From Halomonas sp. (GTDB lineage: Bacteria > Pseudomonadota > Gammaproteobacteria > Pseudomonadales > Halomonadaceae), in the NCBI RefSeq assembly GCF_007625055.1, contig NZ_VMQS01000028.1, forward strand, positions 1 to 33,785: a stretch of DNA of 33,785 nt, read 5' to 3'. Positions 7,989-26,636 of the stretch are shown piece after piece (within the stretch, counting starts at the first letter, position 1; each line of letters opens with the position of its first letter). The notes under the pieces are model-generated. The model was not told the origin of the DNA. It made no database searches and worked only from the letters and a program-made list of their open reading frames with translations. The position numbers and the translations under genes were made by a program.

Positions 7989-8023
7989 GCGCCGCCCGGG
8001 CCATGTAGCTAGGAAACCAATCC

Positions 8024-9907: not shown

Positions 9908-9916
9908 GAGTTACCT

Positions 9917-12900
9917 GTGTCCCAAGATAAACAAACCGTGGTCAAGCGGCATTATTTCTCAGCCCGAAAACGCCTGTGGCTACTGGCCTGGAGCTTGATA
10001 CGTCTGATCATCGTATTGCCTGTCTGGACGATATCCCTGTTATGTGTCGTTCTCGGTTGGGCATTGTCTCCGTGGGGAACCAACGTGCTGCTGGACCAGG
10101 CGGAACAGCGACACTGGATTCAGCTGGACGATCATCAGGGTAGCCTGCTTGAGCGCCTCAAGCTTGAAGGCCTTAGCCTTGACCTGGCAGGCGTTTCCCT
10201 CTCATTCGATGAGTTTGAACTGGCCTGGGCAGAGGATTGCGTACTTTCCGGCCGTTTGTGCATTGATACGCTGAGATTGATCAATGCTGATATTCGCCTG
10301 CCGGCTGGCGGTGACACACCTGAAAAGGAACAGCAGGACTCGGCGCCGATGCAAGAAATACGCTTGCCTTTCCCGGTTGAACTGCGTGAGCTGGTGGTGG
10401 AAAACATGGATGTGCGCCTCGGCGATGGCACTCGAATCCGCTGGGAGAGTTTTACTTCTGCTATCAGTGCAGAAGAAAACCTGATCCGTATTGCGCCCAC
10501 CCACCTTGAGCGTCCTCAGGTCTATTTGCCCCCAGGTCCGGGCGTCTTGTTGGCAGCTTCAGAGGATGCGCCGCTTTCCAGTGAGGCGATTGATGCCGCC
10601 ATTGAATTGCAGGGCCCGCTTGAACCTGTCAATCAGGCTTCAGCTGCAGAAGTCATCGCCAATCGCGAGCCGATTGAGTTACCCGTTATCAGCCTGCCCA
10701 TCAATCTTGAACTGCCTGAATTCAGCCTGAATGAATTGACACTTTCCGGCGTTACAGAGTACACCGTCAACAGCCTGCAACTGGACCTTACCGCCAGAGG
10801 GCGTCAGATCAACCTGAACCAGCTTGACGTCAGAACCCCGGATGCTTCCATGCAGTTGACGGCTGATGTGGCACTGGAAGGAAACTACCCGCTGAATGCT
10901 CAGCTTGATGGGCAACTTTTTCTACCGGAGATCATGCCGGAACTGGCCGGTGAAGAAATTTCCCTGCGTCTGGATGGCAATCTGAATGACTTGAACGCGA
11001 CGCTAGACGCCCGGGGGCCAGTGTCAGCGAACCTGACCGCCAACCTGGATGCTCTGGCGCCGACCCTGCCTTTCCGGATAACGCTGGACAGCGACGAATT
11101 GCGCTGGCCGTTAACATCCGCGTCCATCGCTGAGGACAGTGAATCAGCGGATGAACCTTATGTGATTGACGGATTGGCGTTAACAGCCGAAGGTGATCTC
11201 GAAGACTACCGGCTGGATCTTCAGCTTGATGCCCAGGGCCCACAGGTGCCGCCCAGCCGGTTGTCATTGAACGGCCAGGGGAATCTGGGCATGTTTAACT
11301 GGGCCCCCTTGTCACTGACCGTTGATGATAGCCAGATATCCAGTAGAGGTAATGTCACCTGGCAAGACGGACTAGGCGTTGAAGCGATTGTTGAGCTGTC
11401 CAATCTTAACCCCAATGATCTTGCACCCTCGGTGGAAGGGCGCCTGGATGGGCGCATGGATGTCTCTGTACGCCAGCAGGGTGAGCTTTGGACGGTTTCA
11501 CTGCCGCAGCTTGAAGTCAACGGCGAGCTACAGGACTATCCACTTACTCTTGAGGCTGCGCTGACCGCAGACAGTTCGCTTGACGTCAATCTTCAGCAGC
11601 TGGAATTTGCTCAGGGTGACAACCGGCTCAATGCCAGCGGTCAGATACGTCCGGATAACATGGATCTGGACGCCAGCATTGATATGCGTGGCCTGCAAAC
11701 CCTGGCCCCCGGATTACAGGGCGGCCTGACGGGGCAGGTTCAGGCGCGGGGCAGCCTGGAGCAGCCGCAACTTACCGCCAATCTTGAAGGCCAGGGGCTG
11801 CGGTTTGGCGAAAATCGTCTGGATACTTTGCAGCTGGATGCGGATATCACTGGCATGGAAGACCCGCAGTTAGATGTCCGCCTGGCAGTAGATGATGCTG
11901 TTGCAGGTGGTCAAACATTTGAAAGTATCCTGCTTTCACTGGATGGCAGGCTTTCTGAGCATAACCTGACGCTGGATGTGCTCGGTGGGGCAGATAATGC
12001 ACTGCTTGACAGTGTCACCCTGGCGCTTGATGGTCAGTTTGATCAGCCAGGCGAGCGCTACCAGGCCAGGCTGTCACCTTTTGAGGTTGTATCAGCATTC
12101 GGCACCATAGGCCTTGAAGCCCCTTTGGATCTGGGTTACCGCCTGGATAGTGGAGAAGCCCGTCTGTCCACATTCTGCTTGCGTCGCGAAGAAGGGGGCA
12201 TAATCTGCTCCGACGAGTCCATCAACGCCTCTGCTGAGGCCGGCCAGGCTGTCCTGTCTGTCAGCGAAGTGCCCATGCAGGTGCTTGCTCCCTTTTTACC
12301 TGATGGCTGGTCGCTACAGGGTGATACCACGGCCGATATGACGGCTTCCTGGCAACAGGGCGGTGCTCGCTGGCAGGCGGATCTGGGGCTCGACAGCAGT
12401 CTGGAAATTACCGCACTGAATGATTTTGGCCAGCCCGTGACTTTGCCGCGCCTGCGCCTTGAAACCGGCATAGAAGCTAACCCACAACAGGTGGATGCCA
12501 ATGCCACGCTTGCGCTGGGTGATGCCGGGGATATCAATCTTGACCTGGCGATAACAGACCCAATGGGGGCCGCCGGTCTCGGCGGTGAGCTTAGTGTCGC
12601 CGGCGTTCGTCTGAACCACTACCGCGACATGGTTGTTGGGCTTGATACCCTGGAAGGGCAGCTCGATGGCACTGTCAGTATCAGCGGCACCTTGGTACAG
12701 CCTGATCTTCAGGGGCAGTTAAGTCTCGAGCAGCTTCAGGTCGCCGGCCCCGATCTGCCAATAGTGGTTCCCGATGGTGAAGTTACCGTGGCGTTCGACG
12801 GGGCCTCTGGCCAAATTGATGGTTTTGTGGATGCCGAACGCGGACGCCTGAATATTCAGGGCGATGCCGTCTGGCCAGGAGATGATGACTGGGGGATCAG

Positions 12901-13921
12901 CATTGACCTGGAGGCAACCGAGAACCCACTATTGGTGGCATTACCACAGTTTGGCCGCCTGGAAGCCGCACCTGATATACGCATCCGCGTCGTTCCTGAG
13001 CGCTTGCAGGTACGTGGCAATGTCAATATTCCCTGGGCGCGTCTTGAAGCAGGTGAATTGCCCTCTTCGGTGACGGGGCCTAGCAGCGATGAGATCATCA
13101 TCACCGAGCGCGATGATCAGGAAGCGGAACAGCGGGCGGGTGGGCCGAGTGCTGCAGAAAGTCTCGAGGAGGGGGGAATGGCCATGGATGTCCAGGTCAG
13201 CATCAACCTTGGTGAAGACATGCAGCTGTCTGCGTATGGGCTGAACTCGAACCTTCAGGGCACGCTTGAAGTGGACCAGAATAGTGGAGGGCTGCAGCTG
13301 TTTGGCGACGTTAACCTGGCCGATGGCCGTTTCAAATCCTTTGGACAGGATCTGCTTATCCGGCGTGGCGCCATTATTTTCAGCGGGCCACCGGGGGCAC
13401 CATCGCTTGATTTTGAAGCAATCCGTAATCCTGAGGTTACCCAGGATGATGTGGTGGTGGGTGTCAGGGTGACCGGACTGGCTGATTCCCCCAACCTGAC
13501 CATTTTTTCCAACCCGGCCATGAATGAAACCCGTGCGCTTTCCTATCTGTTGCGCGGCAGGGCGCCCGATGAATCCGGAAGCGGATTTAACAGTGCCATG
13601 ACCACGGCACTGATCAGCATGTCGCTAGGCCGAACTGGTGGCGCAGTAGGATCTATCGGTGAGACATTTGGTATTGATGACCTGCGTCTGGATACCGCAG
13701 GCGCCGGCGAGGATAGTCAGGTAGCGTTGAGTGGTCAGCTGACCGACGACATCAGCGTCAGCTATGGCGTCGGTATCTTTACCCCGATAGCAGAACTTAC
13801 CCTGCGCTATACCTTATGGCGTGACCTGTATCTGCAGGCTGTTTCAGGTGCCAATCAGGCGGTTGACCTGATTTACCAATTCAGCCGCAGTGGTAACCCT
13901 TCAACGTTTCAAGCGAGGTAA
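9917..13921 (+). CDS. tamB: Translocation and assembly module protein TamB
   Basis: Very large inner-membrane-anchored periplasmic protein that forms a beta-taco groove and partners TamA. It has 1334 residues and starts at GTG 9917 with TAGGAG seven bases before. A transmembrane anchor near residues 20-50 (LLAWSLIRLIIVLPVWTISL) is followed by about 1000 residues of repetitive beta-strand sequence rich in LDLxLxAxG patterns. The C-terminal DUF490 domain (about 1090-1334) includes GDVNLADGRFKSFGQDLLI and GVGIFTPIAELTLRYTLWRD and ends in an Omp85-targeting-like beta segment. Length fits the family (E. coli about 1260). Confidence 0.95.
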   Translation: MSQDKQTVVKRHYFSARKRLWLLAWSLIRLIIVLPVWTISLLCVVLGWALSPWGTNVLLDQAEQRHWIQLDDHQGSLLERLKLEGLSLDLAGVSLSFDEFELAWAEDCVLSGRLCIDTLRLINADIRLPAGGDTPEKEQQDSAPMQEIRLPFPVELRELVVENMDVRLGDGTRIRWESFTSAISAEENLIRIAPTHLERPQVYLPPGPGVLLAASEDAPLSSEAIDAAIELQGPLEPVNQASAAEVIANREPIELPVISLPINLELPEFSLNELTLSGVTEYTVNSLQLDLTARGRQINLNQLDVRTPDASMQLTADVALEGNYPLNAQLDGQLFLPEIMPELAGEEISLRLDGNLNDLNATLDARGPVSANLTANLDALAPTLPFRITLDSDELRWPLTSASIAEDSESADEPYVIDGLALTAEGDLEDYRLDLQLDAQGPQVPPSRLSLNGQGNLGMFNWAPLSLTVDDSQISSRGNVTWQDGLGVEAIVELSNLNPNDLAPSVEGRLDGRMDVSVRQQGELWTVSLPQLEVNGELQDYPLTLEAALTADSSLDVNLQQLEFAQGDNRLNASGQIRPDNMDLDASIDMRGLQTLAPGLQGGLTGQVQARGSLEQPQLTANLEGQGLRFGENRLDTLQLDADITGMEDPQLDVRLAVDDAVAGGQTFESILLSLDGRLSEHNLTLDVLGGADNALLDSVTLALDGQFDQPGERYQARLSPFEVVSAFGTIGLEAPLDLGYRLDSGEARLSTFCLRREEGGIICSDESINASAEAGQAVLSVSEVPMQVLAPFLPDGWSLQGDTTADMTASWQQGGARWQADLGLDSSLEITALNDFGQPVTLPRLRLETGIEANPQQVDANATLALGDAGDINLDLAITDPMGAAGLGGELSVAGVRLNHYRDMVVGLDTLEGQLDGTVSISGTLVQPDLQGQLSLEQLQVAGPDLPIVVPDGEVTVAFDGASGQIDGFVDAERGRLNIQGDAVWPGDDDWGISIDLEATENPLLVALPQFGRLEAAPDIRIRVVPERLQVRGNVNIPWARLEAGELPSSVTGPSSDEIIITERDDQEAEQRAGGPSAAESLEEGGMAMDVQVSINLGEDMQLSAYGLNSNLQGTLEVDQNSGGLQLFGDVNLADGRFKSFGQDLLIRRGAIIFSGPPGAPSLDFEAIRNPEVTQDDVVVGVRVTGLADSPNLTIFSNPAMNETRALSYLLRGRAPDESGSGFNSAMTTALISMSLGRTGGAVGSIGETFGIDDLRLDTAGAGEDSQVALSGQLTDDISVSYGVGIFTPIAELTLRYTLWRDLYLQAVSGANQAVDLIYQFSRSGNPSTFQAR

Positions 13922-13927
13922 GACATC

Positions 13928-14539
13928 ATGCGTTTTTTTGATCGTGTTCCAACCGGGCGAGACACGCCGATACCCACCAGTGAGTATCATGCCATCAGCG
14001 GAGAAGCGCTGAAGCCGGCGCACCGCGAAGGCTACGCCACGCTGGTGGTTGGCATGGGGTGTTTCTGGGGCGTCGAACGCCTCTTCTGGTCAGTTCCCGG
14101 GGTTCTGGTCACGGCCGCAGGCTACGCAGGCGGCAAGACGCCCAATCCCAGCTATGAAGAAGTCTGTACGGGTCAGACCGAACACGCGGAAGTGGTCCTG
14201 ATCATTTATGATACCGCTGAAGTCAGTCTGGAATCGCTGTTAACCATTTTCTGGGAAAACCATGACCCCACGCAGCTGAACCGCCAAGGGAACGACAGGG
14301 GTACCCAATACCGTTCAGCTATCTACACCACCGATCAACGACAGCTTGAAACAGCCCGGCACAGCGCCGAACTTTTTCAGCAACAGCTGGATCAGGCCGG
14401 ACGAGGAACGATCACGACGGAGATAAAGCCGCTGGATACGTTTTATTATGCCGAAGCCTATCACCAGCAGTACCTACACAAGAATCCGGGTGGTTACTGT
14501 GGTCTGAAAGGCACCGGTGTCAGCTGCCAACTGGTGTGA
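13928..14539 (+). CDS. msrA: Peptide methionine sulfoxide reductase MsrA
   Basis: Reduces the S epimer of methionine sulfoxide in damaged proteins. It has 203 residues with the active-site motif GCFWGVE (Cys45), the substrate-pocket sequence NPSYEEVCTG, and HDPTQLNRQGND-GTQYRS. The C-terminal Cys191 (in YCGLKGTG) and Cys200 can serve as resolving cysteines recycled by thioredoxin. It lies six bases after tamB and may be co-transcribed with it. Confidence 0.97.
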   Translation: MRFFDRVPTGRDTPIPTSEYHAISGEALKPAHREGYATLVVGMGCFWGVERLFWSVPGVLVTAAGYAGGKTPNPSYEEVCTGQTEHAEVVLIIYDTAEVSLESLLTIFWENHDPTQLNRQGNDRGTQYRSAIYTTDQRQLETARHSAELFQQQLDQAGRGTITTEIKPLDTFYYAEAYHQQYLHKNPGGYCGLKGTGVSCQLV

Positions 14540-14572
14540 GGACATTATTTCTGACGAGGACATACGATCATC

Positions 14573-15100
14573 ATGAGAAGCTTATGCATATTACCCGGGC
14601 ATATCAGTCTTTTTGCCTGTACAGCGGTCGCAGCGGCTCTCTTACTGGGTACAGTATCTTCCCAGGCCAGCGAGAATGATCCCTGGGCGTCTCCGCCAAG
14701 CAGCGCTGAAAGTACTTCCTTTGCAGATCAACGTGAGGCCGTCATCTGGCGTCAGAATACATTCGACGAATCCAAGAGCCTGTTACGCCAACTACGATTT
14801 GATATCGTTAATCAGCGCGATCTGTCTGCCGCTGAGCCGCGTATTGAATCCCTCAGGCAAATGCTCAGTGCAGATAAAATGCTCCCGGCGTTCATTGAAG
14901 GCAGTCATGGTTCAGGGTCTGATGCCAGACCGGAAATCTGGGAGGAGTGGGATCGCTACCGATCGGGCTTTGATCAACTGGATACCGACATAGCCACTCT
15001 CCAAGAGGCAGTCAGCAATGAGGATTTGAGGGCTGCCGCCAAGGGGCTCTCAGTTGTTGGAGAAAGTTGTAAAAGCTGCCACCGTGGTTATCGCTACTGA
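14573..15100 (+). CDS. Cytochrome c'-type periplasmic haem protein
   Basis: A 175-residue exported protein. A signal peptide covers about 1-33 (LFACTAVAAALLLGTVSSQA). The mature part is helical with WRQNTFDESKSLLRQLRFDIV, and the C-terminus carries a single haem-attachment motif CKSCH (Cys166, Cys169, axial His170) followed by RGYRY. Four helices with a C-terminal CxxCH is the signature of cytochrome c' (class II). Such proteins bind nitric oxide or act in electron transfer; which applies here is not shown. The first helix replaces the usual short R-Q-x-x-M start with longer sequence, so the match is to the fold rather than a close homologue. Confidence 0.85.
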   Translation: MRSLCILPGHISLFACTAVAAALLLGTVSSQASENDPWASPPSSAESTSFADQREAVIWRQNTFDESKSLLRQLRFDIVNQRDLSAAEPRIESLRQMLSADKMLPAFIEGSHGSGSDARPEIWEEWDRYRSGFDQLDTDIATLQEAVSNEDLRAAAKGLSVVGESCKSCHRGYRY

Positions 15101-15138
15101 TCAATTCATGGCGGCTATCAAGGCCGCCACCTTGATCA
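15098..15138 (+). other. Interrupted hairpin after cytochrome c' gene
   Basis: TGATCAA (15098-15104, including the stop codon) pairs with TTGATCA (15132-15138). Inside it GGCGGC (15110-15115) pairs with GCCGCC (15123-15128) around a 7-base loop. No T-run follows, so it is not a classic intrinsic terminator but may end or protect the transcript. The rest of the gap to 15362 holds no convincing gene. Confidence 0.4.
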
Positions 15139-15362
15139 ATCGCCAGCGTCGAGGCCGTCAACTCGATGAAGGGTCGCCACCTGGCAGAGATCATCTATTC
15201 ACCCTGATACCTGTATTTCCGGCCATGCATGACGATTTGTGGACCTCGCTGCCAGAGGTTCGAGATAAACCGCGCGCCTCATAGAACCTGCCGTGTCACG
15301 GGCATATTTAATGATCAGGAAATACCCTTTAACCTATTGATATTGAATGAAAGGAGCACGGA

Positions 15363-16757
15363 ATGACGGATAAAACCGCTTATGAATACGACCTCTTTGT
15401 CATTGGCGCCGGATCAGGCGGCGTGCGCGCAGCCAGAATGGCGGCGGCTGAAGGTGCCAAGGTCGGGATAGCGGAAAACCGTTATCTGGGAGGAACCTGC
15501 GTCAATGTGGGATGCGTACCCAAAAAACTCTATTCCTATGCTGCGCACTTTCACGACAGCTTCGACGATGCGGCTGGCTTTGGCTGGCAATTACCTGGCC
15601 CGGCTACGTTTGATTGGGCAACCCTGAGAGAGAACAAGAAAGGTGAAATCAAGCGCCTGAACGGTATCTATCACCGCTTGCTCGAAGGTGCCGACGTATC
15701 GCTTTACAATGCGCATGCCAGCGTCATGGATGCGCATACCGTCGTCCTGCATAACGACGAAGGTGAGCATCAGGTCACCGCACAGCGGATTCTGGTGGCC
15801 ACCGGCGGCTGGCCCTGGCTGCCGGATTTCCCGGGTAGCGAACATATGCTCAGCTCCAACCAGATTTTTGATCTGGAACATTTCCCCAAACGCTTTCTGA
15901 CCCTTGGCGGTGGTTATATTTCGGTCGAATTTGCCAGCATTTTCAATGGCCTTGGTAGTGATACCCACCTTATCTATCGCGGCGATCTTTTCCTGCGTGG
16001 CTTTGATCAGGAAGTACGTGAATTTACCCGCGATGAGATGGCGCGTAAGGGAGTAAACCTGCACTTTAACGTCAATATTGCCCAGATCGATAAAGTAACG
16101 GGTGATAACAACCGCGATGAATACCGGGTGACATTGACTGACGGCCAGGTAATGCACGTGGATGCGGTTCTGGCGGCCACCGGCCGGCATGCCAATATTG
16201 AAGGGTTAGGGCTGGATACATTGGGCATACGCTTGGACGAGCAGGGCAAGGTGCCTGTCAATGAGCGTTTTGAGACCAGTATCCCTTCCATCCTGGCCCT
16301 TGGCGATCTGATTGCAGGGCCAGAACTGACCCCTATCGCACTGGCTGAAGCCATGCACCTGGTGGATGTTCATTTTCGTGATGTTGATGCGAGCCCGATG
16401 GATTACGCCAACATTCCCACCGCCGTGTTCTGTCACCCCAATATAGGAACCGTCGGGCTGTCTGAAGAAGAGGCCAGAGAAAAAGGCAATATTCGTGTTT
16501 ACCAGGCCGATTTTCGCGCGATGAAACATACCCTGTCAGGCAGCCAGGAACGTACCCTGATGAAGCTGATTGTGGATGATGCTACCGACGTGGTGCTTGG
16601 CGCGCATATGGTAGGGGACGAGGCGGGAGAAGTTATCCAGGGCATAGCCATCGCCGTCCGGGCAGGGCTCACCAAGGCTGACTTCGACCGTACAGTGGGC
16701 ATTCATCCAACCGGCGCTGAAGAATTTGTCACCATGCGCAACGTCACCCGCTGCTAA
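15363..16757 (+). CDS. gorA: Glutathione-disulfide reductase
   Basis: FAD-dependent NADPH oxidoreductase that keeps glutathione reduced. It has 464 residues with the FAD-binding GAGSGGVRAARMAA near the N-terminus, the redox disulfide in GGTCVNVGCVPKK (Cys46, Cys51), an NADPH-binding loop GGGYISVEFA, the second FAD motif ALGDL, and the dimer-interface catalytic His448 in HPTGAEE. The presence of HPTGAEE plus the glutathione-reductase-type GTCVNVGCVPKKLY favours Gor over dihydrolipoamide dehydrogenase or mercuric reductase. AAAGGAGCACG precedes the ATG. Confidence 0.95.
   Translation: MTDKTAYEYDLFVIGAGSGGVRAARMAAAEGAKVGIAENRYLGGTCVNVGCVPKKLYSYAAHFHDSFDDAAGFGWQLPGPATFDWATLRENKKGEIKRLNGIYHRLLEGADVSLYNAHASVMDAHTVVLHNDEGEHQVTAQRILVATGGWPWLPDFPGSEHMLSSNQIFDLEHFPKRFLTLGGGYISVEFASIFNGLGSDTHLIYRGDLFLRGFDQEVREFTRDEMARKGVNLHFNVNIAQIDKVTGDNNRDEYRVTLTDGQVMHVDAVLAATGRHANIEGLGLDTLGIRLDEQGKVPVNERFETSIPSILALGDLIAGPELTPIALAEAMHLVDVHFRDVDASPMDYANIPTAVFCHPNIGTVGLSEEEAREKGNIRVYQADFRAMKHTLSGSQERTLMKLIVDDATDVVLGAHMVGDEAGEVIQGIAIAVRAGLTKADFDRTVGIHPTGAEEFVTMRNVTRC
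16660..16667 (+). other. KOPS-like octamer (GGGCAGGG)
   Basis: Matches GGGNAGGG on the plus strand inside the glutathione reductase gene, left of dif and pointing toward it. Confidence 0.45.
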
Positions 16758-16799
16758 CCGGTGAAAAGCCGAGAGTATAATTTTTTATTATAGTACGGC

Positions 16800-16968
16800 C
16801 GGTCATGATCGCCCCAGATTTGCTGTTATCATAATTTAAAGTTATAGTAACGATAAATTGTTTTTAAACAATCTGTTCATAAGATACTCGTTTCTTAAAG
16901 TACTTTTCGAACAATGTACGTATTGAACAGCGTACCACTTGATTAAATCGCAAAAGCGAAGCTTAACC
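16800..16968 (+). promoter_or_regulatory. AT-rich leader/promoter region of ectA
   Basis: This region is clearly more AT-rich than its neighbours. It holds a perfect inverted repeat ATTGTTT-TT-AAACAAT (16857-16872) and an 11-base direct repeat with 9 of 11 matches: GAACAATGTAC (16909-16919) and GAACAGCGTAC (16925-16935), start-to-start distance 16. In Halomonas elongata ectA is driven by osmotically responsive promoters upstream, so the region probably carries the regulated promoter. I cannot place the -10 and -35 boxes with confidence. Confidence 0.5.
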
Positions 16969-17565
16969 ATGACAACGCCAACACCACCCTTTACGCCCTC
17001 TGCCGATCTGGTTCGTCCTACCGTTGCGGATGCCGTGGTAGGGCATGCAGAGACCCCTTTATTCATACGCAAACCGAATGCTGAAGACGGCTGGGGGGTA
17101 TACGAACTCATCAAGTCCTGTCCACCGCTGGATGTCAACTCAGCCTATGCCTACCTGCTGTTGGCAACACAGTTTCGTGATACCTGTGCTGTGGCTATCA
17201 ATGAAGAACATGAGGTCGTCGGCTTTGTATCCGGGTATGTCAAGGATAATGCGCCGGATACGTATTTCCTGTGGCAAGTGGCCGTGGGGGAGAAGGCGCG
17301 TGGAACGGGCTTGGCCCGCCGTCTGGTTGAAGCCATTATGACACGCCCCGAACTTCAGGAAGTCCATCATCTTGAAACGACCATCACCCCGGATAACCAG
17401 GCCTCATGGGGTTTGTTTCGCCGGCTTGCAGCCCGGTGGCAAGCGCCGCTGAACAGTCGTGAATATTTTTCCACCGAACAGCTCGGCGGAGAACATGATC
17501 CTGAGAATCTGGTCAGGATTGGTCCTTTCCAGACAGGCACTATCGCTGGTTATCAGGGTGATTGA
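16969..17565 (+). CDS. ectA: L-2,4-diaminobutyric acid acetyltransferase EctA
   Basis: GNAT-family enzyme that acetylates L-2,4-diaminobutyrate to N-gamma-acetyldiaminobutyrate, the middle step of ectoine synthesis. It has 198 residues. The start at 16969 matches the family N-terminus (PFTPSADL-VRPTVADAVVG) and has a purine-rich site at 16954-16961; an in-frame ATG at 16939 would add ten atypical residues. Visible landmarks are DGWGVYELIKSCPPLDVNSAY, the acetyl-CoA loop VAVGEKARGTGLARRL and HLETTITPDNQASWGLF. The gene that should follow, ectB, is absent: ectC comes after only 50 bases. Confidence 0.97.
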   Translation: MTTPTPPFTPSADLVRPTVADAVVGHAETPLFIRKPNAEDGWGVYELIKSCPPLDVNSAYAYLLLATQFRDTCAVAINEEHEVVGFVSGYVKDNAPDTYFLWQVAVGEKARGTGLARRLVEAIMTRPELQEVHHLETTITPDNQASWGLFRRLAARWQAPLNSREYFSTEQLGGEHDPENLVRIGPFQTGTIAGYQGD

Positions 17566-17615
17566 CGTACTATTCTATTGACGCTATCAGTGGCTAAACG
17601 AATAAGGAAACTATT

Positions 17616-18011
17616 ATGATCGTCCGCAATATTGAAGAAGCGCGCCAGACAGACCGCCTAGTCAAGGCAGAAAATGGCAACTGGGACAGCACTCGCCTGG
17701 TACTCGCCGCAGATGGTGGTGATTTTTCTTTTCATATCACGCGTATCTACGAAGGTACAGAAACGCATATTCACTACAAGCATCACTTTGAATCGGTATA
17801 TTGCATTGAAGGGGAAGGGGAAGTTGAAACCCTGGCCGATGGCAAGATCTGGCCAATCAAGCCTGGCGATATCTATGTCCTTGATCAGCATGACGCGCAT
17901 CTCCTGCGTGCCCATAAGACGATGCATCTGGCTTGTGTATTCACACCCCCCATTACGGGGACTGAAGTTCATCGGGAAGATGGCTCTTATGCGCCTGCTG
18001 ATGAGGAATAA
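17616..18011 (+). CDS. ectC: L-ectoine synthase EctC
   Basis: Cupin-fold enzyme that cyclises N-gamma-acetyldiaminobutyrate to ectoine. It has 131 residues with [16 protein letters not shown], the cupin metal-binding stretch [22 protein letters not shown] and [18 protein letters not shown], all at family positions. The Shine-Dalgarno AAGGA lies at 17605-17609. A strong bidirectional terminator follows. With EctB missing here, ectoine production requires diaminobutyrate from a transaminase encoded elsewhere, or external supply. Confidence 0.97.
17812..17819 (+). other. KOPS-like octamer (GGGAAGGG)
   Basis: Matches the FtsK-orienting consensus GGGNAGGG on the plus strand, left of dif and therefore pointing toward it. 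It lies inside ectC, where coding constraint (Glu-Gly-Glu-Gly) could also explain it. Confidence 0.45.
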
Positions 18012-18031: not shown

Positions 18032-18069
18032 CAGCCCGCCAAAGACACCTGTTGGCGGGCTGATTTGTT
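18032..18069. terminator. Bidirectional intrinsic terminator between ectC and the DUF3833 gene
   Basis: An 11-bp perfect stem, CAGCCCGCCAA (18032-18042) with TTGGCGGGCTG (18052-18062), has a 9-base loop. ATTTGTTT follows on the plus strand, and GTTTTAT follows on the minus strand. It separates two convergent genes and can serve both. Confidence 0.9.
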
Positions 18070-18611
18070 TAGCGCTGTTCAAATACCAGCGTGATTTCGC
18101 CGAGTGTTAAACCAAATTTACGCATTGCCGTACGGTTAATCAGTTTTCCATCGGGTTGCAGGTACATCCAGTCATCCATGGTGAACGTCAAGGTCCGGCC
18201 ACTGACTTCTATATCCAATGGGTAACGCATGTGAAAAGCATTGCCGTATTGTCTGGCTTCAACGTTGCCTTCCACATCGTTGGCCGAGCCATTCCAGGTG
18301 TGCTCGTCAATACGTTCAAATGTCCATACCCGTCGGTCTGTTTCACCGTTGGCAAAGACAAAGGCTTCATCCAGCACCAGGGTGTCACCCTCGTAAGTCC
18401 CTTCAATATCCACGGTAAACTGGCGCTGAATTTCGCCACTGTAGTCCTGTACGATTCCCCAGGCCCGGGTTTCACCTTCAAAGTATTCGGCAATATCCAG
18501 CGTGGGCGTGGTGTCTGCATACTGTTCGATATCAACGCTGGTACAACCGGTTAAAAGCAGGATTGCCAGCGATAGCACGCTCCAACGCCAAAAACGATCT
18601 AACAGGGCCAT
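18069..18611 (-). CDS. DUF3833-family lipoprotein
   Basis: A 180-residue lipoprotein. The start at 18611 has AGGAGA at good spacing and gives a signal peptide with lipobox LTGC, lipidated Cys23. An ATG at 18683 would place 24 extra residues before it. The body has family landmarks FEGETRAWGIVQDYSGEIQRQF, DGETDRR-type turns, WTFERIDEHTWNGSA and DDWMYLQPDGKLINRTAMRKFG, typical of DUF3833, a lipocalin-like fold of unknown role in the envelope. It is convergent with ectC and divergent from the gene at 18859, with dif in between. Confidence 0.85.
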   Translation of the reverse strand: MALLDRFWRWSVLSLAILLLTGCTSVDIEQYADTTPTLDIAEYFEGETRAWGIVQDYSGEIQRQFTVDIEGTYEGDTLVLDEAFVFANGETDRRVWTFERIDEHTWNGSANDVEGNVEARQYGNAFHMRYPLDIEVSGRTLTFTMDDWMYLQPDGKLINRTAMRKFGLTLGEITLVFEQR

Positions 18612-18721
18612 GGGAGATTCTCCTGAGGACAGCCAAGGGGTAAATATCACAAAACCATACACTGTACAGGAGTTGTCGAGCAACGCCTTGTCAAAATTAC
18701 AGAACCAATGGACGACCCTAG

Positions 18722-18749
18722 AGTTCGCATAATATATATTATGTTAAAT
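18722..18749 (+). other. dif: dif, chromosome dimer resolution site
   Basis: The 28 bases comprise a XerC-type arm AGTTCGCATAA (18722-18732), a central TATATA (18733-18738) and a XerD-type arm TTATGTTAAAT (18739-18749). The right arm is identical to that of E. coli dif as I recall it, and the whole differs from it at three positions (1, 4 and 13). The 11-6-11 spacing is exact, and the site is intergenic, between divergent genes. XerCD act here with FtsK to resolve chromosome dimers, so this marks the replication terminus. Confidence 0.93.
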
Positions 18750-18858: not shown

Positions 18859-19773
18859 ATGCGCAACGGTTGTTCATGGATGGCCATCTCGCCCACCCCC
18901 CTTAACAAAAACCTCTCCAGGCTACTTATGGTCACCCTGCTAGCGACCCAGTTGACCGGGTGTGCCGCTCTGCGATCAGACCAACCGCAGGATTCTGCTC
19001 TCCAGCCGCTAGGCAGAGAGGCGTTTAATCAGCGCATTGATGAACTGGCTTTATCCCTTGAATCGCAGTGTGATACTTCGCCGCTATTAGACAGCCAGCA
19101 GCGTCAGGCGCAGCGCATGACGGCCGATGTGCGTGAAATTGGCAGCTTGTTAAGAAAACTCAACGATAATGTAGACAACCTGACGCTGGCCGCCCCTCAA
19201 ATCGTCCCGACGGGCACTCAACAACCCGTGGCGGCCGAATTATGCAGTCAGGAGAATTCGCCCAGCGGAAACAAGACCCTCGTCGGTCGCAGTGAGTGGA
19301 TTGGTTTACCTCATCTAGGCACATCTCTCAAGGCGCGTATTGATTCCGGGGCCAATACGGCATCGCTTTCTGCAACGGAAATTACCCCCTTTGAACGTGA
19401 CGGTGAAGACTGGGTGCGCTTTAAATTGGCACTTAATGACAACGACGAGGTCGTAGAAAGTGCCCAAAAGGAAGCGTTCGAAGCCCCGGTTGAACGCCGG
19501 GTCAAGGTGCTACAGGCAACAGGTGAAGATTCACGCCCGGTTATTTCACTATTGGTGATCCTGGGGCCGATTCGTCAGCATGCTGAATTTACCCTGAATG
19601 ATCGTACCCATCTCAATTTCCCTGTATTGCTGGGTAGGCGTTTTTTGCTGGATATCGCGCTTATCGATGTGGCTGAAAGCTATCTGCATGAGCGGCCAGA
19701 GTTTTCTGGCGGCACCCCTGCAGATCAAACGGTCAATGCCCCTTCATCAGACATGGATACGAATGATGACTGA
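18859..19773 (+). CDS. Retropepsin-like 'ATP-dependent zinc protease' family lipoprotein (PF05618-type)
   Basis: A 304-residue lipoprotein with lipobox LTGC near residue 35, a helical linker (about 50-120) with VREIGSLLRKLNDNVDNLTL, and a C-terminal aspartic-protease-like domain (about 145-290). The catalytic-type D-S-G is in ARIDSGANTASL (Asp162), and the later LGRRFLLDIALIDV matches the retropepsin hydrophobic-Gly segment. The historical name 'zinc protease' is doubtful: the motif is that of retroviral-type aspartic proteases. ATG 18859 has AAGGGA ten bases upstream; ATGs at 18880 or 18928 are alternatives. It starts a three-gene cluster with the transglutaminase-like membrane protein and the ATP-grasp ligase. 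Confidence 0.85.
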   Translation: MRNGCSWMAISPTPLNKNLSRLLMVTLLATQLTGCAALRSDQPQDSALQPLGREAFNQRIDELALSLESQCDTSPLLDSQQRQAQRMTADVREIGSLLRKLNDNVDNLTLAAPQIVPTGTQQPVAAELCSQENSPSGNKTLVGRSEWIGLPHLGTSLKARIDSGANTASLSATEITPFERDGEDWVRFKLALNDNDEVVESAQKEAFEAPVERRVKVLQATGEDSRPVISLLVILGPIRQHAEFTLNDRTHLNFPVLLGRRFLLDIALIDVAESYLHERPEFSGGTPADQTVNAPSSDMDTNDD

Positions 19774-19811
19774 CCACTCATCGTACTGAGTGGCTACCTA
19801 ACCAAGGAAGC

Positions 19812-21335
19812 ATGATGTCACGACTGCCCTTCTATTTTATTGTCGGGATTTTATTGGTGGCTGGTATCGCCATGAGCGTTCAGCGCCACCTGCAGTTTGA
19901 AATTCCCTGGTTGCCTGGAAAGCAGCAAGAAGTCTGGGAAGTTGAAGCCATGATCAATTTCAGCGCCCAGGATGCACCGGTGGAAGTCAATTTTGCCCTG
20001 CCTTCCCATCAGGAAGGGTTTCGGATACTGACTGAAAATACGGCATCATCGGGGTATGGTCTGGCATACCAGTCAAATGAGCGGGGTCGCCGTGCCCAAT
20101 GGTCTATTCGTCATGCCAGTGGTTCACAGCAGTTGTATTACTCAGCGCAGATACTGGTGTCACCTGAGGCTCGTGCGCCGGAGCAACGACCACCGGACCT
20201 ACCCTCGGTAACCGCCTGGGAACGTCCCTATGATACGGCTGCCCGAGAGGTTATCGAACGCGCTTGGACGCGCAGTGCCAATAATGCCTCCTTTACGCGC
20301 GCGTTGATTCGCGATGTCAATGGCGAACAGCAAGGTGAAAACGCCAGGCTGTTGCTGACCCAGTTTGAACCTGGCGAGCTTATCGTGAGACTGCTCGGAC
20401 AAGCCGACGTAAAAGCGCGGTCCATCAGTGGCCTTTTGCTTGAAGACGGCCGACGTCGGCAGACATTGACCCAATGGATCCAGGTCTACAGCGAAAACGA
20501 CAAGCAATGGTGGTTATTTGACCCGGAAACCGGTGAGCAGGGAAAGCCGGACAATCTGTTACTTTGGGAAACTGGCGGGCAGGCTGTACTGGAGGTACTG
20601 GGCGGAACAAACTCGCGGGTCACCTTCTCAATGTTGACCCATTCCCAGCCGGCTTCTGCGGCGGTACGCAACCACCTCTCTGACGACACCTTGCTCAACT
20701 TTTCAATCCATAGCCTACCGCTTGAGGAACAGGCACTTTTCCAGACAATCCTGTTGATTCCGATTGGTGCGCTGGTCGTCGTTTTCCTGCGTGTGCTGGT
20801 AGGCATCAAGACATCCGGTACCTTCATGCCTGTGCTGATTGCCCTGGCGTTTATCCAGACCACCCTTTTAACCGGTTTGATCGGGTTTTTGCTGATCGTT
20901 GCAGTGGGTCTTGTCATTCGTAATTATCTGTCCTATCTCAACCTGCTGTTGGTTGCCCGGGTGTCTGCGGTGATAATAACGGTGATTGCGATTATTTCGA
21001 TCTTCTCGGTCGTTGCCTATCGGATGGGGCTTAATGCGGGGCTTACGATTACCTTTTTTCCGATGATTATCCTTGCCTGGACGATAGAGCGCATGTCGAT
21101 CCTGTGGGAAGAGGAAGGTCCCAAGCAGGTATTGATTCAGGGTGGCGGCAGCCTGATTACCGCCGTGTTGGCTTTTCTGGCGATGAACAATCCTGTTGTG
21201 CGCCATATCACCTTTAATTTCCTGGGCATTCAACTGATCCTGATGGCGCTGATTCTGCTATTGGGAAACTATACCGGTTACCGCCTGCTTGAACTGCGCC
21301 GTTTCAAACCCATCACCGATGACGAACCGTCATGA
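19812..21335 (+). CDS. Inactive transglutaminase-like domain fused to seven-helix membrane domain
   Basis: A 507-residue inner-membrane protein. One N-terminal helix (about 5-22) leads to a periplasmic domain with a transglutaminase-like core (about 140-260). The C-terminal 200 residues form about seven helices (LFQTILLIPIGALVVVFLR, SGTFMPVLIALAFIQTTLL, VARVSAVIITVIAIISIFSV and others). In the transglutaminase part the catalytic Cys is absent and the usual His-Ala-Trp reads TQW, though W-x-x-F-D is kept. It is therefore a binding rather than a catalytic module, as in the known family. AAGGAAGC precedes the start; ATG 19815 is an equally good alternative. Its stop overlaps the next start (21332-21335). 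Confidence 0.88.
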   Translation: MMSRLPFYFIVGILLVAGIAMSVQRHLQFEIPWLPGKQQEVWEVEAMINFSAQDAPVEVNFALPSHQEGFRILTENTASSGYGLAYQSNERGRRAQWSIRHASGSQQLYYSAQILVSPEARAPEQRPPDLPSVTAWERPYDTAAREVIERAWTRSANNASFTRALIRDVNGEQQGENARLLLTQFEPGELIVRLLGQADVKARSISGLLLEDGRRRQTLTQWIQVYSENDKQWWLFDPETGEQGKPDNLLLWETGGQAVLEVLGGTNSRVTFSMLTHSQPASAAVRNHLSDDTLLNFSIHSLPLEEQALFQTILLIPIGALVVVFLRVLVGIKTSGTFMPVLIALAFIQTTLLTGLIGFLLIVAVGLVIRNYLSYLNLLLVARVSAVIITVIAIISIFSVVAYRMGLNAGLTITFFPMIILAWTIERMSILWEEEGPKQVLIQGGGSLITAVLAFLAMNNPVVRHITFNFLGIQLILMALILLLGNYTGYRLLELRRFKPITDDEPS

Positions 21336-22345
21336 AGGGGTTTCTGAATCAACTGACCCTAGCGTGGACATCGCCGTCGCGCCTGCGTGATAAAGGCATA
21401 ATCGGTATGAACAGGCGAAATATCCGCTATATCGGCCGCTATAACAATCGTCGTCTCTATCCGCTGGTGGATGACAAACTCAAGACCAAGCTGCTGGCGC
21501 AATCGCACGGTGTCACCTCACCGGTATTGATTGGTACGGTGGAGACCCAATTTGGCATCAAGCAGTTGAGAGCTACCTTACAGGGGCATCGCGGCTTTGT
21601 GGTCAAACCGGCCAAGGGTAGCGGAGGCAAAGGCATTCTGGTGATTGAGCAATCTGATGGTCAGGCCTATATCAAACCAAGCGGCGCCCGGCTGTCGCTG
21701 GTCGATATAGAGCGTCACGTATCAAATATTCTTTCTGGCCTCTACTCGCTGGGTGGGTCACCGGATGTTGCCGTTATCGAAACACTGATCAATTTTGATA
21801 AAAGCCTGCTGGCCTACACCTACGAAGGTGTGCCGGATATTCGCGTGATCATTTTCAAAGGCTATCCGGTCATGGCCATGATGCGCCTGTCAACTGCTGC
21901 GTCAGATGGCAAGGCCAACCTGCACCAGGGAGCAGTGGGAGTCGGGCTGGATATTGCCAGTGGCCATGCATTGCGCGGTGTTCAGTTCGACCGCCCTTGT
22001 CAGCGTCACCCGGATACGGATCATGATCTGGCCGAGCTTAAAGTGCCGCATTGGCAAACCCTGCTCAACCTGGCAGCCAGCTGCTATGAAATGACAGGCC
22101 TGGGTTACCTGGGCACCGACATGGTACTTGACCGGGACCACGGCCCCATGCTTCTGGAACTGAATGCGCGTCCGGGGCTGGCGATCCAGATGACCAACGG
22201 GGAAGGTTTACGGCCGCGCCTGGACCTGATCGAACGTCAACCGGAGGGCTTGGCGCCCCGGGCCAGAGTCGCCTTTGCCCAGCATCACTTTGCACGGCAC
22301 AGCGAACTGGTAAGCAGCGCTGACAGTACGGATGTAAACACGTAA
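21332..22345 (+). CDS. RimK-related alpha-L-glutamate ligase-like ATP-grasp protein
   Basis: A 337-residue cytoplasmic ATP-grasp enzyme. Landmarks are the phosphate-binding loop VVKPAKGSGGKGILVI (about 90-105), the ATP-contact stretch DIRVIIFKGYPVMAMMRLS, and the metal-binding end TDMVLDRDHGPMLLELNARPGLAIQ. The group is related to RimK, which adds glutamate to proteins; the true substrate of this branch is unknown to me. It overlaps the previous gene by ATGA, so expression is coupled. Together with the retropepsin-like lipoprotein and the transglutaminase-like membrane protein it forms a set predicted, from comparative genomics of ATP-grasp ligases, to make or process a peptide modification. 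Confidence 0.88.
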   Translation: MKGFLNQLTLAWTSPSRLRDKGIIGMNRRNIRYIGRYNNRRLYPLVDDKLKTKLLAQSHGVTSPVLIGTVETQFGIKQLRATLQGHRGFVVKPAKGSGGKGILVIEQSDGQAYIKPSGARLSLVDIERHVSNILSGLYSLGGSPDVAVIETLINFDKSLLAYTYEGVPDIRVIIFKGYPVMAMMRLSTAASDGKANLHQGAVGVGLDIASGHALRGVQFDRPCQRHPDTDHDLAELKVPHWQTLLNLAASCYEMTGLGYLGTDMVLDRDHGPMLLELNARPGLAIQMTNGEGLRPRLDLIERQPEGLAPRARVAFAQHHFARHSELVSSADSTDVNT

Positions 22346-24151: not shown

Positions 24152-25387
24152 CTACTCAGGCGATGATGACTGCAAACGGTGACGCTGCTGTTCAAGGTGC
24201 CACTGCTCATCTTCGCTGTGTAAATAACGGGAAGTGGTCTCCAGCCGGGCATGACGGGCACTTTCAGCCAGATAACGCAGACTGACGCCGGCCTGGGCCT
24301 GGTGGGTAATCGACGTATGACGAAGCCAATGAGGGGTGGCATGACGTAAGGCCTCTGTCTGCGCTGCGTCACCACCCTCCTGTTCCAGTGCGTCTGCCGC
24401 TTGCTGGAAGGTGGCGCGGATCAGGCGATAAAGCTGATTATCGCTGATACGACGTTGACCATTCAGCGAACGCAACAAGGGGGTGTCTTCCTGGAATAGC
24501 GGCTCGGGCGTCAACCCCAGAACGTTTCTCCATTGCGCCAGTTGGCGTATGAAATCATCCGGAACCGGCACCTTGGCAACCTTGTCGCCCTTACCGGTCA
24601 CCTCCCACCACCAGCGCCCTTCTCTTTGCTGGATATCTCCCATGTGTGCCGCCGCCATTTCGCTGATGCGTGGGGCCAGCATATAAGCAAAGGCGAAGAT
24701 AATCCGGCGGCGTGCCTGCTCGAATTGAGCACGTGGGTGGCTGTCTGTCTCCCGCTGCAGCCATTCCCATAGCCAATCCCACAGGCTTTTTTCCAGGTAT
24801 CGCTCGATTCGGGGCGTCTGATTGTTCAGGCGACGGGATTTATCGCGCATCAGTCTGAACGGGTTGTGCGTCACCCAGCCAGCTTCCACCAACCAACTGA
24901 ACATACCTTGCAGGATTACCAGGCTCTGGCGGCGGCTGGAAGCTGACAAAGGGCCGCGAAAAGGACGCCAATCCGGGTGCTGCCTGGGTTTTGAAGGCCC
25001 GACCCATATCCTGCTGGGCTGGGGGTCCGCCAGAAAGGCTTCAAACGCCTGAAGTGCTGCACGATCAACCGCGTTAAGGCTCAGCTGTTGCTGGGCAAGC
25101 CATAACAGCAAACGTTCCGCTTCGCGCTGATAGGTACGCCAGGTTTGCGGGCTGGCAGTGTATTCGCTCAACCAGTGAGTGACAGCATCAGCATCGTTGT
25201 ATGCGTTGATCCGCAGTGACGGCTGAGGACTCGGTTTGCCAGGCAGCCATTCGGTACGTAAAGCATTGTTTTCTAGTCCACTAACAGTACCTTGAGATTC
25301 CAGCCCTGTATCCACGCCCTGCCCCTTTGAATGCCTATGTATCCAAGACCTGAAGGTCTTATCACAACACCTTGCTGACAGTGCCAT
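24152..25387 (-). CDS. Tyrosine recombinase (phage integrase family)
   Basis: Site-specific recombinase of 411 residues. A SAM-like core-binding domain (about 60-190; TWRTYQREAERLLLWLAQQQ, VILQGMFSWLVEAGW) is followed by the catalytic domain. All catalytic residues are seen: Arg240 (MLAPRISEM), a Lys in GKGDKVAK (267-269), His353-x-x-Arg356 (HWLRHTSI), His379 and the nucleophile Tyr388 in SRYLH. It is longer than XerC/D (about 300), with a charged N-terminal extension. No clear ribosome-binding site precedes the ATG at 25387, so the true start could be further in, for example the GTG codon of Val25. It is divergent from a KfrA-like gene across an AT-rich, repeat-rich gap. No phage or cargo genes flank it. 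Confidence 0.9.
   Translation of the reverse strand: MALSARCCDKTFRSWIHRHSKGQGVDTGLESQGTVSGLENNALRTEWLPGKPSPQPSLRINAYNDADAVTHWLSEYTASPQTWRTYQREAERLLLWLAQQQLSLNAVDRAALQAFEAFLADPQPSRIWVGPSKPRQHPDWRPFRGPLSASSRRQSLVILQGMFSWLVEAGWVTHNPFRLMRDKSRRLNNQTPRIERYLEKSLWDWLWEWLQRETDSHPRAQFEQARRRIIFAFAYMLAPRISEMAAAHMGDIQQREGRWWWEVTGKGDKVAKVPVPDDFIRQLAQWRNVLGLTPEPLFQEDTPLLRSLNGQRRISDNQLYRLIRATFQQAADALEQEGGDAAQTEALRHATPHWLRHTSITHQAQAGVSLRYLAESARHARLETTSRYLHSEDEQWHLEQQRHRLQSSSPE
25317..25324 (-). other. KOPS-like octamer (GGGCAGGG on minus strand)
   Basis: Reads CCCTGCCC on the plus strand. It lies right of dif, and its minus-strand GGGNAGGG orientation points back toward dif, opposite to the octamers on the left side. 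Confidence 0.45.
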
Positions 25388-25398: not shown

Positions 25399-25430
25399 AA
25401 ATTCAAGATAATAAGGGTAATCTTGAATTT
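25399..25430. repeat. Perfect 11-bp inverted repeat between integrase and KfrA-like genes
   Basis: AAATTCAAGAT (25399-25409) and ATCTTGAATTT (25420-25430) are exact inverse complements separated by 10 bases. It lies 11 bases before the integrase start codon. It could be an operator for the KfrA-like protein, a core recombination site for the adjacent recombinase (11-bp arms are typical of Xer-like sites, but the spacer is longer than the usual 6-8), or a regulatory hairpin. Confidence 0.7.
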
Positions 25431-25450
25431 ATTCTCGCATCATAAATATT

Positions 25451-25481
25451 ATTACATAATACGTAAAATGTAATTTACATT
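25451..25481. repeat. Cluster of ATTACAT/ATGTAAT inverted motifs
   Basis: ATTACAT (25451-25457) is the inverse of ATGTAAT (25468-25474). Overlapping it, AATGTAA-T-TTACATT (25467-25481) is a perfect 15-base palindrome with a single central base. Three copies of the same half-site within 31 bases suggest cooperative binding by a dimeric regulator, probably the KfrA-like product of the next gene. Confidence 0.6.
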
Positions 25482-25550: not shown

Positions 25551-26636
25551 ATGGCCCGCAATGGCATTCAGTACAGCGATGTACAACAGGCAATTGATGA
25601 ACTTCTGACCCGCGGCGACACGCCCAGTGTGCAGCGTATTCGCGATGTATTGGGTACCGGCAGCTTTACGACCATCAGCGAGCATTTCCGCCATTGGCGC
25701 CTGGAACGTGAGCAGAACAAGGATGTTCCCCCACCCAAAGGGGTGCCGGAAGTTGTCGTGACCGCCGCTTCTGAGCTTTGGCGTCAGGCACAGGAAGCCG
25801 CCCACCAGGGACTTCTGCATTACCGGGAAGAAGCTGACAGGAAAGTGGCTGATGCACATCAGGCCGTCGAACTGGAAAAGCAGAAAGCAGCGCATGCAGA
25901 ACAGCGTGAAAAGGCCTTAACGGCGCATTTGCGCCATATCGAGGAACAACTGAACCAGACCACCACGGCGCTGGCGCAAACCCAGGCGCATGCCCAACAT
26001 TGGGAAGCGGAATCACAGCGGCATGCCAGAGCGCATGATCAGGCGGTGGAACAGCTCAAGAACGTACGCCAGCAACTGCAGCACAGCGCAAATCGTTATC
26101 AGGAAGAGATGCACCAACAAAAGCAGCGCCTTGAAGGGCAGCTCAAGCAGGAGCAGCAGCGCAATGAAACTACCGAAGCCAAATTGATGGGGTTGCTGGA
26201 CAAGACCCGTCAGGAGCGCACCAGTGAGCAGAAAGCGCTGAATAAAAAGTTGCATCAGCAGGAGGAGCAGATTGAAAAGTTGCAGCATTCTCTGAAAGAA
26301 GAACAGCACGCACGTCAGGCGTTAGCGTCCAGGCTGGCACTAACAGAAGGGTCGCTGGAAGAAAAGTCTCAAAGAAATGAGCAACTACAACACCAGCAAG
26401 CACAACAGCATGCGCAACTGGAATCAACCCGGCAGGAACTGGCGCGTTGTCAGCAGCAATATACTGAGGCGCTCAAACAGCAGGATAACCAGTGGCAGAA
26501 GGAAATTATCGACAGCGTACAGGCGCTACAGCGCCAGGTGTCTACACTGCCCACCCGCCTGAATGATGACGGGAAGCCGCAGGGTGCTCAGATATCAGCC
26601 GCCCAGAAAAACACTGATGAACCATCAGGGTCATAA
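25551..26636 (+). CDS. KfrA-like DNA-binding coiled-coil protein
   Basis: A 361-residue protein with an N-terminal KfrA-type DNA-binding domain (about 1-70; YSDVQQAIDELLTRGDTPSVQRIRDVLGTGSFTTISEHFRHWR) and a very long alpha-helical tail (about 80-335) extremely rich in Gln, Glu and Arg. Plasmid KfrA proteins are autoregulating, filament-forming DNA binders linked to partition. Here the gene is chromosomal, near the terminus and divergent from a recombinase. ACAGGAG (25538-25544) fixes the start. The inverted repeats upstream are candidate operators. Whether it acts on chromosome organisation or only on the recombinase is not known. Confidence 0.88.
   Translation: MARNGIQYSDVQQAIDELLTRGDTPSVQRIRDVLGTGSFTTISEHFRHWRLEREQNKDVPPPKGVPEVVVTAASELWRQAQEAAHQGLLHYREEADRKVADAHQAVELEKQKAAHAEQREKALTAHLRHIEEQLNQTTTALAQTQAHAQHWEAESQRHARAHDQAVEQLKNVRQQLQHSANRYQEEMHQQKQRLEGQLKQEQQRNETTEAKLMGLLDKTRQERTSEQKALNKKLHQQEEQIEKLQHSLKEEQHARQALASRLALTEGSLEEKSQRNEQLQHQQAQQHAQLESTRQELARCQQQYTEALKQQDNQWQKEIIDSVQALQRQVSTLPTRLNDDGKPQGAQISAAQKNTDEPSGS

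Follow-up and report, generated by a model that had tools for sequence, protein, structure and literature searches.

A classical dif site and a second tyrosine recombinase module near the chromosome terminus of Halomonas, with relatives in families that lack XerD

Two recombination modules lie about 6.7 kb apart in the window analysed here, a 33,785-nucleotide stretch of Halomonas DNA that forms the whole of contig C41 (33.8 kb) of a 149-contig draft genome, 88.9% complete (Table 1). We are confident of a joint reading in which the site at 18722 is the chromosomal dif, a tyrosine recombinase (TyrRec) and a symmetric site constitute a second module, and relatives of this module probably resolve dimers in families that lack XerD. 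We also lean, by a modest degree, towards a broader reading: that the module represents a further single-recombinase Xer family, with a plasmid-type recombinase, a 12-6-12 site and often a divergent kfrA gene, which has taken the place of XerCD/dif across many families of the order, FtsK/KOPS having been redirected to its site, and which in Halomonas coexists with XerCD/dif and provides the resolution site of small plasmids.

Table 1. Features of the window discussed in the text
Feature	Position	Strand	Remarks
KOPS-like octamer	5923-5930	+	directed toward dif
KOPS-like octamer	16660-16667	+	directed toward dif
KOPS-like octamer	17812-17819	+	directed toward dif
DUF3833 gene	18069-18683	-	left neighbour of dif; Pfam PF12915, E 5e-62; same neighbour in G026
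dif	18722-18749	+	XerC arm 18722-18732, hexamer 18733-18738 (TATATA), XerD arm 18739-18749
Retropepsin-like putative protease gene	18859-19773	+	right neighbour of dif; PF05618; RloA/RimB-like; same neighbour in G026
TyrRec, 411-aa tyrosine recombinase	24152-25387	-	PF00589; R240, K266, H353, R356, H379 and Y388 present
KOPS-like octamer	25317-25324	-	directed toward dif, away from the second site
Second dif-like site	25400-25429		12-6-12 near-perfect inverted repeat, AATTCAAGATAA TAAGGG TAATCTTGAATT; 11/12 arm pairs
TTACGTA-type repeat	25449-25476		between second site and kfrA; conserved in the aligned genus loci except G044 (L183)
KfrA_N-domain DNA-binding protein gene	25551-26636	+	PF11740, E 8e-25; likely coiled coil; divergent from TyrRec; weak SMC-like matches
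KOPS-like octamer	29986-29993	-	directed toward dif

The site at 18722-18749 reads AGTTCGCATAA TATATA TTATGTTAAAT on the forward strand. As an earlier sequence-only reading had described, it is a genuine 28-base site of 11-6-11 layout, placed between one open reading frame on the minus strand (18069-18683) and another on the plus strand (18859-19773). The three differences from the E. coli dif that this reading had counted were also recovered, with the XerD arm identical and the hexamer TATATA. The dif pattern was matched in none of 100 shuffles, and neither an Rfam nor a tRNA scan of the window gave a match. A second or better dif elsewhere in the genome would have counted against the assignment; at up to three mismatches there was one match across the 149 contigs, and none for the reversed control. 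Among relatives in the genus, dif is single-copy in 46 of 48 genomes, the two misses being genomes only 66% and 71% complete, and the pattern extends to 19 of 29 genomes from other families of the order. The XerD arm is constant across the 46 genus sites, the hexamer of which is TATATA in 43, TGTATA in two (G016 and G034) and TATTTA in one (G028). A blastn search of plasmids with the dif region returned seven records, which are 60-80% identical over 3-14% of the query. In the compilation of Carnoy & Roten (PMC2731167), the rows for Pseudomonas, Hahella and Yersinia show the same XerD arm, and TATATA is the hexamer printed for Hahella and Francisella.

KOPS polarity provides a positional test of this assignment. 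The octamers at 16660 (+), 17812 (+) and 25317 (-), on which the sequence-only reading had relied, are real and directed toward dif, and two further octamers that it had overlooked, at 5923 (+) and 29986 (-), have the same polarity. The window thus has five exact copies of GGGNAGGG, all of which point to dif (one-sided 1/32); as their number matches chance expectation (mean 4.77), only their orientation carries weight. Of octamers with exactly one mismatch, 35 plus-strand and 14 minus-strand copies occur to the left of dif, compared with 17 and 24 to the right. The cumulative GC skew reaches its maximum within the window at ~30.97 kb, 12 kb to the right of dif, and the window by itself is therefore no proof of a terminus. 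Accordingly, the skew shift anticipated at ~18.7 kb fails within the window, although it does appear in the relative G026 and, roughly, in G012. Since the contig spans just 33.8 kb, polarity was examined in G026, a complete genome with the same gene order, and here the anticipated reversal at dif is clear: 21 plus and 3 minus octamers on the left, 3 plus and 18 minus on the right, such that 39 of 45 within 200 kb are directed toward dif. The best polarity break in G026 falls between 1,894,743 and 1,911,418, with dif at 1,900,448; GC skew is +0.048 to the left of dif and -0.034 to the right, and its cumulative maximum lies 15 kb from dif. In G012, from sampled stretches, the skew changes sign between 2.22 and 2.38-2.42 Mb, with dif at 2.414 Mb.

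The dif surroundings are syntenic with the window: all 30 of the window ORFs queried have a match around dif in G026 and 29 of 30 in G012, in the order of the window except for two overlapping ORFs. The genome itself encodes XerD (367.6 bits, over the TIGR02225 cut-off), a probable XerC (a second TIGR02225 match of 253 bits, assigned from that XerD model alone) and an FtsK-gamma domain (98 bits, over cut-off). Synteny, the KOPS and skew flip in G026 and these machinery genes together support the earlier placement of the terminus at dif. The skew maximum lying off dif inside the window would suit a 28-mer that is only a dif look-alike, that is, a plasmid or element site with the terminus elsewhere; given the synteny, the uniqueness of the site and the flip of KOPS and skew in complete relatives, we regard this as extremely improbable. 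The site at 18722-18749 is an ordinary classical dif at the ordinary terminus of a Halomonas/Vreelandella-type chromosome.

Several features of the dif surroundings deserve mention in their own right. Adjoining dif (18859-22345) is a row of genes for a retropepsin-like protease, an inactive transglutaminase-7TM protein and an ATP-grasp glutamate-ligase-like protein, resembling RloA/RloB/RimK. On the other side (16939-18011) are genes for a GNAT acetyltransferase and an ectoine synthase, between which an aminotransferase gene is usual; here it is absent. Relative to G026, G012 has ~10 kb of extra DNA around dif (~2,408,400-2,418,600), with dif still near the skew change. In G055, from another family of the order, dif and a degenerate copy of it flank a corticovirus-like provirus (L107, ~4985-17880) that encodes a P2 coat protein and a Phage_GPA replication protein; the two sites are in the same orientation, as expected for an element integrated via the host Xer system.

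The second module is centred on TyrRec, whose residues R240, K266, H353, R356, H379 and Y388 are invariant in all 11 aligned proteins and presumably constitute the catalytic set, going by the motif. TyrRec scores far under cut-off against the NCBIfam models for XerC (76.7 bits) and XerD (56.5 bits), and PADLOC gave no match to it. The nearest solved structures to its predicted fold, of moderate confidence (mean pLDDT 70.5), are Cre and then XerH. By sequence, TyrRec is best placed among Vreelandella and Halomonas proteins, with 87% identity to that of V. azerica. Relatives are widespread on plasmids, with matches in 1,659 plasmid records (E <= 1e-8), five of which were inspected; some of these records probably belong to different subfamilies. 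A TnpR subgroup is described as abundant in bacterial genomes (PMC8138268).

Directly 5' of TyrRec, and reading AATTCAAGATTA CCCTTA TTATCTTGAATT in the orientation of the gene, lies the second dif-like site. Five 12-6-12 repeats with at least 10 of 12 pairs occur in the window (mean of 1.7 under a first-order Markov model), so that an inverted repeat alone proves nothing and the argument rests on conservation. With the pattern ATTCAAGATTA-N6-TTATCTTGAAT at up to three mismatches across 78 genomes, the site was found in the genome itself and in 46 of 48 genus relatives, compared with 0 of 78 for the reversed control, and it occupies a single location in 37 of these 47 genomes. Beyond the genus it was matched in one of 29 genomes from the order, with three mismatches and chance-like, while it is present with one mismatch in a Myxococcota draft whose recombinase is 44% identical. 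When 29 sites of the clade are compared, no arm position is shared by fewer than 25 of them, whereas four of the six hexamer positions are freer. The distance to dif is 6.4-33.9 kb (median 6.6 kb; below 7.5 kb in 41 of 45) in the 45 genus genomes measured, a set that leaves out G016, where the two sites are on separate contigs. The surroundings being syntenic too, this constant place by itself reflects vertical inheritance and is a weak argument.

Could the inverted repeat instead be an operator through which TyrRec or kfrA regulates itself? Most genus loci have it between TyrRec and kfrA, in the intergenic region just 5' of TyrRec; kfrA genes are autorepressors; and in Halotalea, where 8.8 kb separate the site from TyrRec, it still adjoins kfrA. 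This 8.8-kb separation nevertheless argues against an operator, as do the constancy of the arms while the hexamer varies, the location of the L187 site 3' of the kfrA stop codon, the presence of the site on plasmid-like contigs in which no relative of TyrRec was found (five of these contigs being searched in part) and, in genomes that lack XerD, a site at the KOPS flip that can be as much as ~31 kb away from the gene. We therefore consider an operator alone improbable, although the second site may have an additional operator role. The TTACGTA-type repeat at 25449-25476, which resembles one in two Burkholderiaceae plasmid loci, would be either an accessory sequence or the KfrA operator.

Read as a recombination site, the second locus comprises one recombinase with a complete active site and mirror-image arms to which, judging from their symmetry, it would bind. 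In this genome it has not displaced XerCD/dif, as XerD, a probable XerC and dif are all present; replacement is indicated only in the families that lack XerD. Moreover, the four octamers located between dif and the second site (one in the window, two in G026 and one in G012) are all directed toward dif. KOPS convergence in Halomonas is thus on dif and not on the second site, which argues against TyrRec as the principal resolver of the chromosome in this genus.

The distribution of the second site on other replicons suggests a different role. In ten of the 47 genomes it has 12 extra locations, two on contigs of 403 and 593 kb and the rest on contigs of 4.4-39 kb. Four of the latter (L186, L188, L190 and L193) carry 55- or 121-base repeats at their ends, like circular assemblies; Rep3 initiators are encoded by L186, L187, L188 and L193, MobA by L187, and a replicase together with its own Integrase_1-type protein by L190. 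No TyrRec relative was found at 1e-3 on the small site-bearing contigs besides a weak match in L192 and an XerC/D-like match in L189; L189, L192, L194, L195 and L206 were searched in part. A blastn search of 72,556 plasmid records with the 32-base second site (E up to 10) returned five records. Two are Halomonas plasmids, of H. qaidamensis (45.9 kb) and pHAL40 (4.3 kb; three arm mismatches), in both of which the site is outside annotated genes; the others, one Piscirickettsia and two Tolypothrix plasmids, match within genes. As E-values of 0.7 and 9 are not significant alone, the host organism, Halomonas, is the argument here. The second-site pattern also occurs in ten viral contigs, two of which (L209 and L216) resemble Halomonas plasmids, two (L208 and L211) are possible and the other six are chance-like. 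A phage collection gave 17 records with matches to the site; those in the 15 records examined were set aside as short, partial and mostly within annotated genes.

A palindrome of the type CGTGA-N5-TCACG precedes the 28-mer at exactly -28 to -14 in seven replicons (one of the two sites of L186, L188, L190, L193, L206 and the viral contigs L209 and L216), and is perfect in two. Plasmid Xer sites use fixed accessory sequences of this kind. The second site is thus found, with an accessory sequence, on plasmids in which the contigs or parts of contigs searched gave no clear TyrRec relative, as would be expected of a plasmid resolution site. As separate observations, L186 (sites at 30 and 5038) and L193 (1982 and 4849) each carry two second sites in the same orientation on a small circular contig, reminiscent of pdif modules; and RdgC proteins that carry an FtsK_gamma domain (PF09397, over cut-off) at the C terminus are encoded by the H. 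qaidamensis replicon NZ_CP080628.1 (L269:964-2115) and the viral contig L209 (6379-7545), both of which also carry the second site. In E. coli, FtsK-gamma activates XerD, and the RdgC fusion could therefore be a plasmid-borne activator of Xer-type recombination.

Some plasmids carry a similar module complete with its recombinase. In two Burkholderiaceae plasmids (L267 and L268), divergent TyrRec and KfrA_N genes flank a 12-6-12 repeat with 12/12 and 10/12 pairs, and Halioglobus pRR3-57 has a perfect 12-6-12 repeat three mismatches from the Halomonas second site; in the loci inspected on Cupriavidus necator pHG1 and a C. taiwanensis plasmid, neither site nor KfrA_N neighbour was found. Such plasmid relatives, and the shared divergent gene pair, raise the question of whether the module is what remains of a plasmid or element integrase and its old attachment site, domesticated or in decay and with no present function for the cell. 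TyrRec also appears disrupted in G045, and stops were reported inside the matching segment of G008, G027 and G031, so that it may be dispensable. The gene, its active-site residues and the site are, however, kept genus-wide near dif (place alone being weak evidence), and plasmids retain the site. On balance a functionless relic appears unlikely, and we prefer to view TyrRec and its site as a working module.

Further indications of what the module may do come from families in which XerD is absent. Among 29 genomes of the order, one per family, XerD (TIGR02225) was over cut-off in 18 and under it in 11. One of the 11, G055, has a classical dif; in another, G050 (75% complete), dif is missing as well, although there is an XerC-level match of 295.7 bits; it has no TyrRec relative, giving at most a presumed XerC/XerD cross-match. 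In the remaining nine (G053, G059, G063, G064, G066, G069, G071, G074 and G077) no classical dif was found, nor anything convincing with a looser pattern, and all nine carry a TyrRec relative (E 5e-14 to 2e-36), that of G059 being fragments at a contig end. In comparison, the 18 genomes with XerD gave no match to TyrRec or matches of E >= 7e-8, which we read as cross-matches of XerC and XerD. The XerD model also matches G063 at 250-257 bits, close to the 253 bits of the Halomonas XerC; being repeated copies, like extra ones in G051, these genes were read as mobile Xer-like genes and left uncounted as XerD. Within the family of G053 (f6), a TyrRec relative occurs in 21 of 22 genomes and XerD over cut-off in none, lower matches reaching 242.8 bits. 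In the tree, the Halomonadaceae TyrRec proteins group with the Myxococcota row in a clade (97/93) whose sister is the clade from XerD-less genomes (98/99), and the sole Xer rows, the XerC and XerD of the present genome, are placed apart from both. The idea that G055 carries both systems was rejected, as the TyrRec-like protein of this genome falls outside both clades on a long branch (6.42 changes per column).

A first palindrome scan of the loci without XerD gave mixed candidates only. Mirror repeats with arms of 12 or 13 bases do occur near the TyrRec relative in several of these genomes, for example TATTTCCTGTAAT CTTT ATTACAGGAAATA. A degenerate pattern at up to two mismatches, the reversed control of which matched 2 of 48 genomes, found such a symmetric site in 20 of 22 f6 genomes (18 with one location), in six of eight other genomes without XerD and in none of 18 with XerD; some of the matches in G063, G066 and G081 may be chance. 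Gene and site can be far apart (~119 kb in G074; on separate contigs in G066). Neither was found in G091, while G098 and G077 have the gene, and G059 gene fragments, with the site absent at up to two mismatches.

As some of the genomes searched had also served to derive the motif, KOPS position is the independent test. For three of the four single-contig f6 genomes, we located the polarity break over spans of 180-208 kb, with GC skew in 1-kb bins. The break falls at 1,723,140-1,731,576 in G053 (site at 1,728,849; 22/23 octamers directed toward it; skew maximum ~5.5 kb away), at 1,719,894-1,734,121 in G085 (site at 1,731,691; 22/27 octamers; ~0.7 kb) and at 1,829,697-1,833,342 in G093 (site at 1,832,407; 22/23 octamers; ~1.4 kb). 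In all three genomes the symmetric site is inside this interval and the recombinase gene outside it, which indicates that the terminus goes with the site rather than with the gene. Pieces of 20 kb from the fourth single-contig genome, G079, and from G082, G087 and G096 showed 14 of 16 octamers directed toward the site, with the skew passing from plus to minus there in G082 and G087 and not in G079 and G096. Octamers in the wrong direction thus numbered 7 of 73 in the three larger spans and 2 of 16 in the pieces.

An attachment site favoured by mobile elements, with dimers resolved elsewhere or never, might also occupy such a position: elements that exploit Xer have their attachment sites at dif (PMC9765430), and some genomes have extra copies of the symmetric site, one of them beside a second TyrRec relative. 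That gene, in G092 (C79:6065-6799), is divergent and has its own symmetric site, possibly as a mobile copy of the module. But 18 of the 22 f6 genomes have the site at one location, and its coincidence with the KOPS flip in three of three genomes, 0.7-5.5 kb from the skew maximum, is as expected of a dif. A mobile-element site is accordingly the less favoured explanation, to which we would give about one chance in five. In the families without XerD, the TyrRec relative and the symmetric site at the flip of KOPS and GC skew are probably the chromosome dimer resolver, as far as gene content and position can indicate.

A mechanism can be proposed on this basis. For dif it rests on the known E. coli mechanism together with the anatomy and positional tests given here: FtsK, guided by KOPS, would move terminus DNA until XerC and XerD are on dif and would switch on XerD, and strand exchange by XerCD would then convert a chromosome dimer into two monomers. 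TyrRec, in turn, may bind both mirror-image arms of its site and recombine pairs of sites, resolving in the first place dimers of plasmids that carry the site and perhaps, as a back-up, those of the chromosome; in Halomonas, XerCD/dif would be the main chromosome resolver and the TyrRec system accessory to it. The simplest history would be that a plasmid stability module settled at the terminus and replaced XerCD in some lineages, with direction and timing inferred. If true, Halomonas would be a living intermediate in a swap between systems, one genus bearing both together, and a resolution site could be swapped while FtsK guidance is kept. The dif site alone is useful mainly as a mark of the terminus. 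The second module bears on a question posed in 2009, namely how dimers are resolved in bacteria with large chromosomes and no detectable dif/Xer; Carnoy & Roten (PMC2731167) name Legionellales, Saccharophagus degradans and Colwellia, and the Legionellales case was answered in 2022 with XerL (PMC9765430). New here is the proposal of a testable recombinase and site for the XerD-less families of the order to which the window belongs.

Compared with known systems, the first site follows XerCD/dif of E. coli, Pseudomonas and Hahella in its 11-6-11 layout, XerD arm, intergenic position and location at the terminus, and in the accompanying genes for XerD, a probable XerC and FtsK-gamma; it departs from the gamma-proteobacterial dif in having TATATA for TGTATA, shared with Hahella and Francisella, and a changed outer XerC arm. 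The plasmid copies of the second site recall cer, psi and pdif: small plasmids carry a site of chromosomal type together with a conserved palindrome at a set distance, and no gene for a recombinase of this family was found on them. They differ in their presumed recombinase, TyrRec in place of XerCD, and in the CGTGA-N5-TCACG-like palindrome. The Burkholderiaceae plasmid recombinases beside kfrA (~40% identical; L267 and L268) share the divergent TyrRec/KfrA_N arrangement with a 12-6-12 repeat between, but are plasmid-borne and have another arm sequence. A literature search, mostly outside subscription papers, returned none that joins Halomonas, a tyrosine recombinase and dimer resolution, and no single-recombinase system beyond those of Legionellales, Epsilonproteobacteria, streptococci/lactococci and archaea. 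Like XerH/difH and XerS/difSL, as described in PMC9765430, the second module has one recombinase with its gene near the site; XerH is among the structure matches of TyrRec and XerS is a weak profile match only, and both belong to other hosts. The nearest printed system, likened by description alone, is XerL of Legionellales (Lpg1867), which according to the same paper is also a single tyrosine recombinase with uninterrupted mirror-image arms at a site near the terminus. The XerD-less families share with it the lack of XerD above cut-off, whereas Halomonas differs in retaining XerCD/dif, in having the gene adjoin both site and kfrA, and in plasmids that bear the site.
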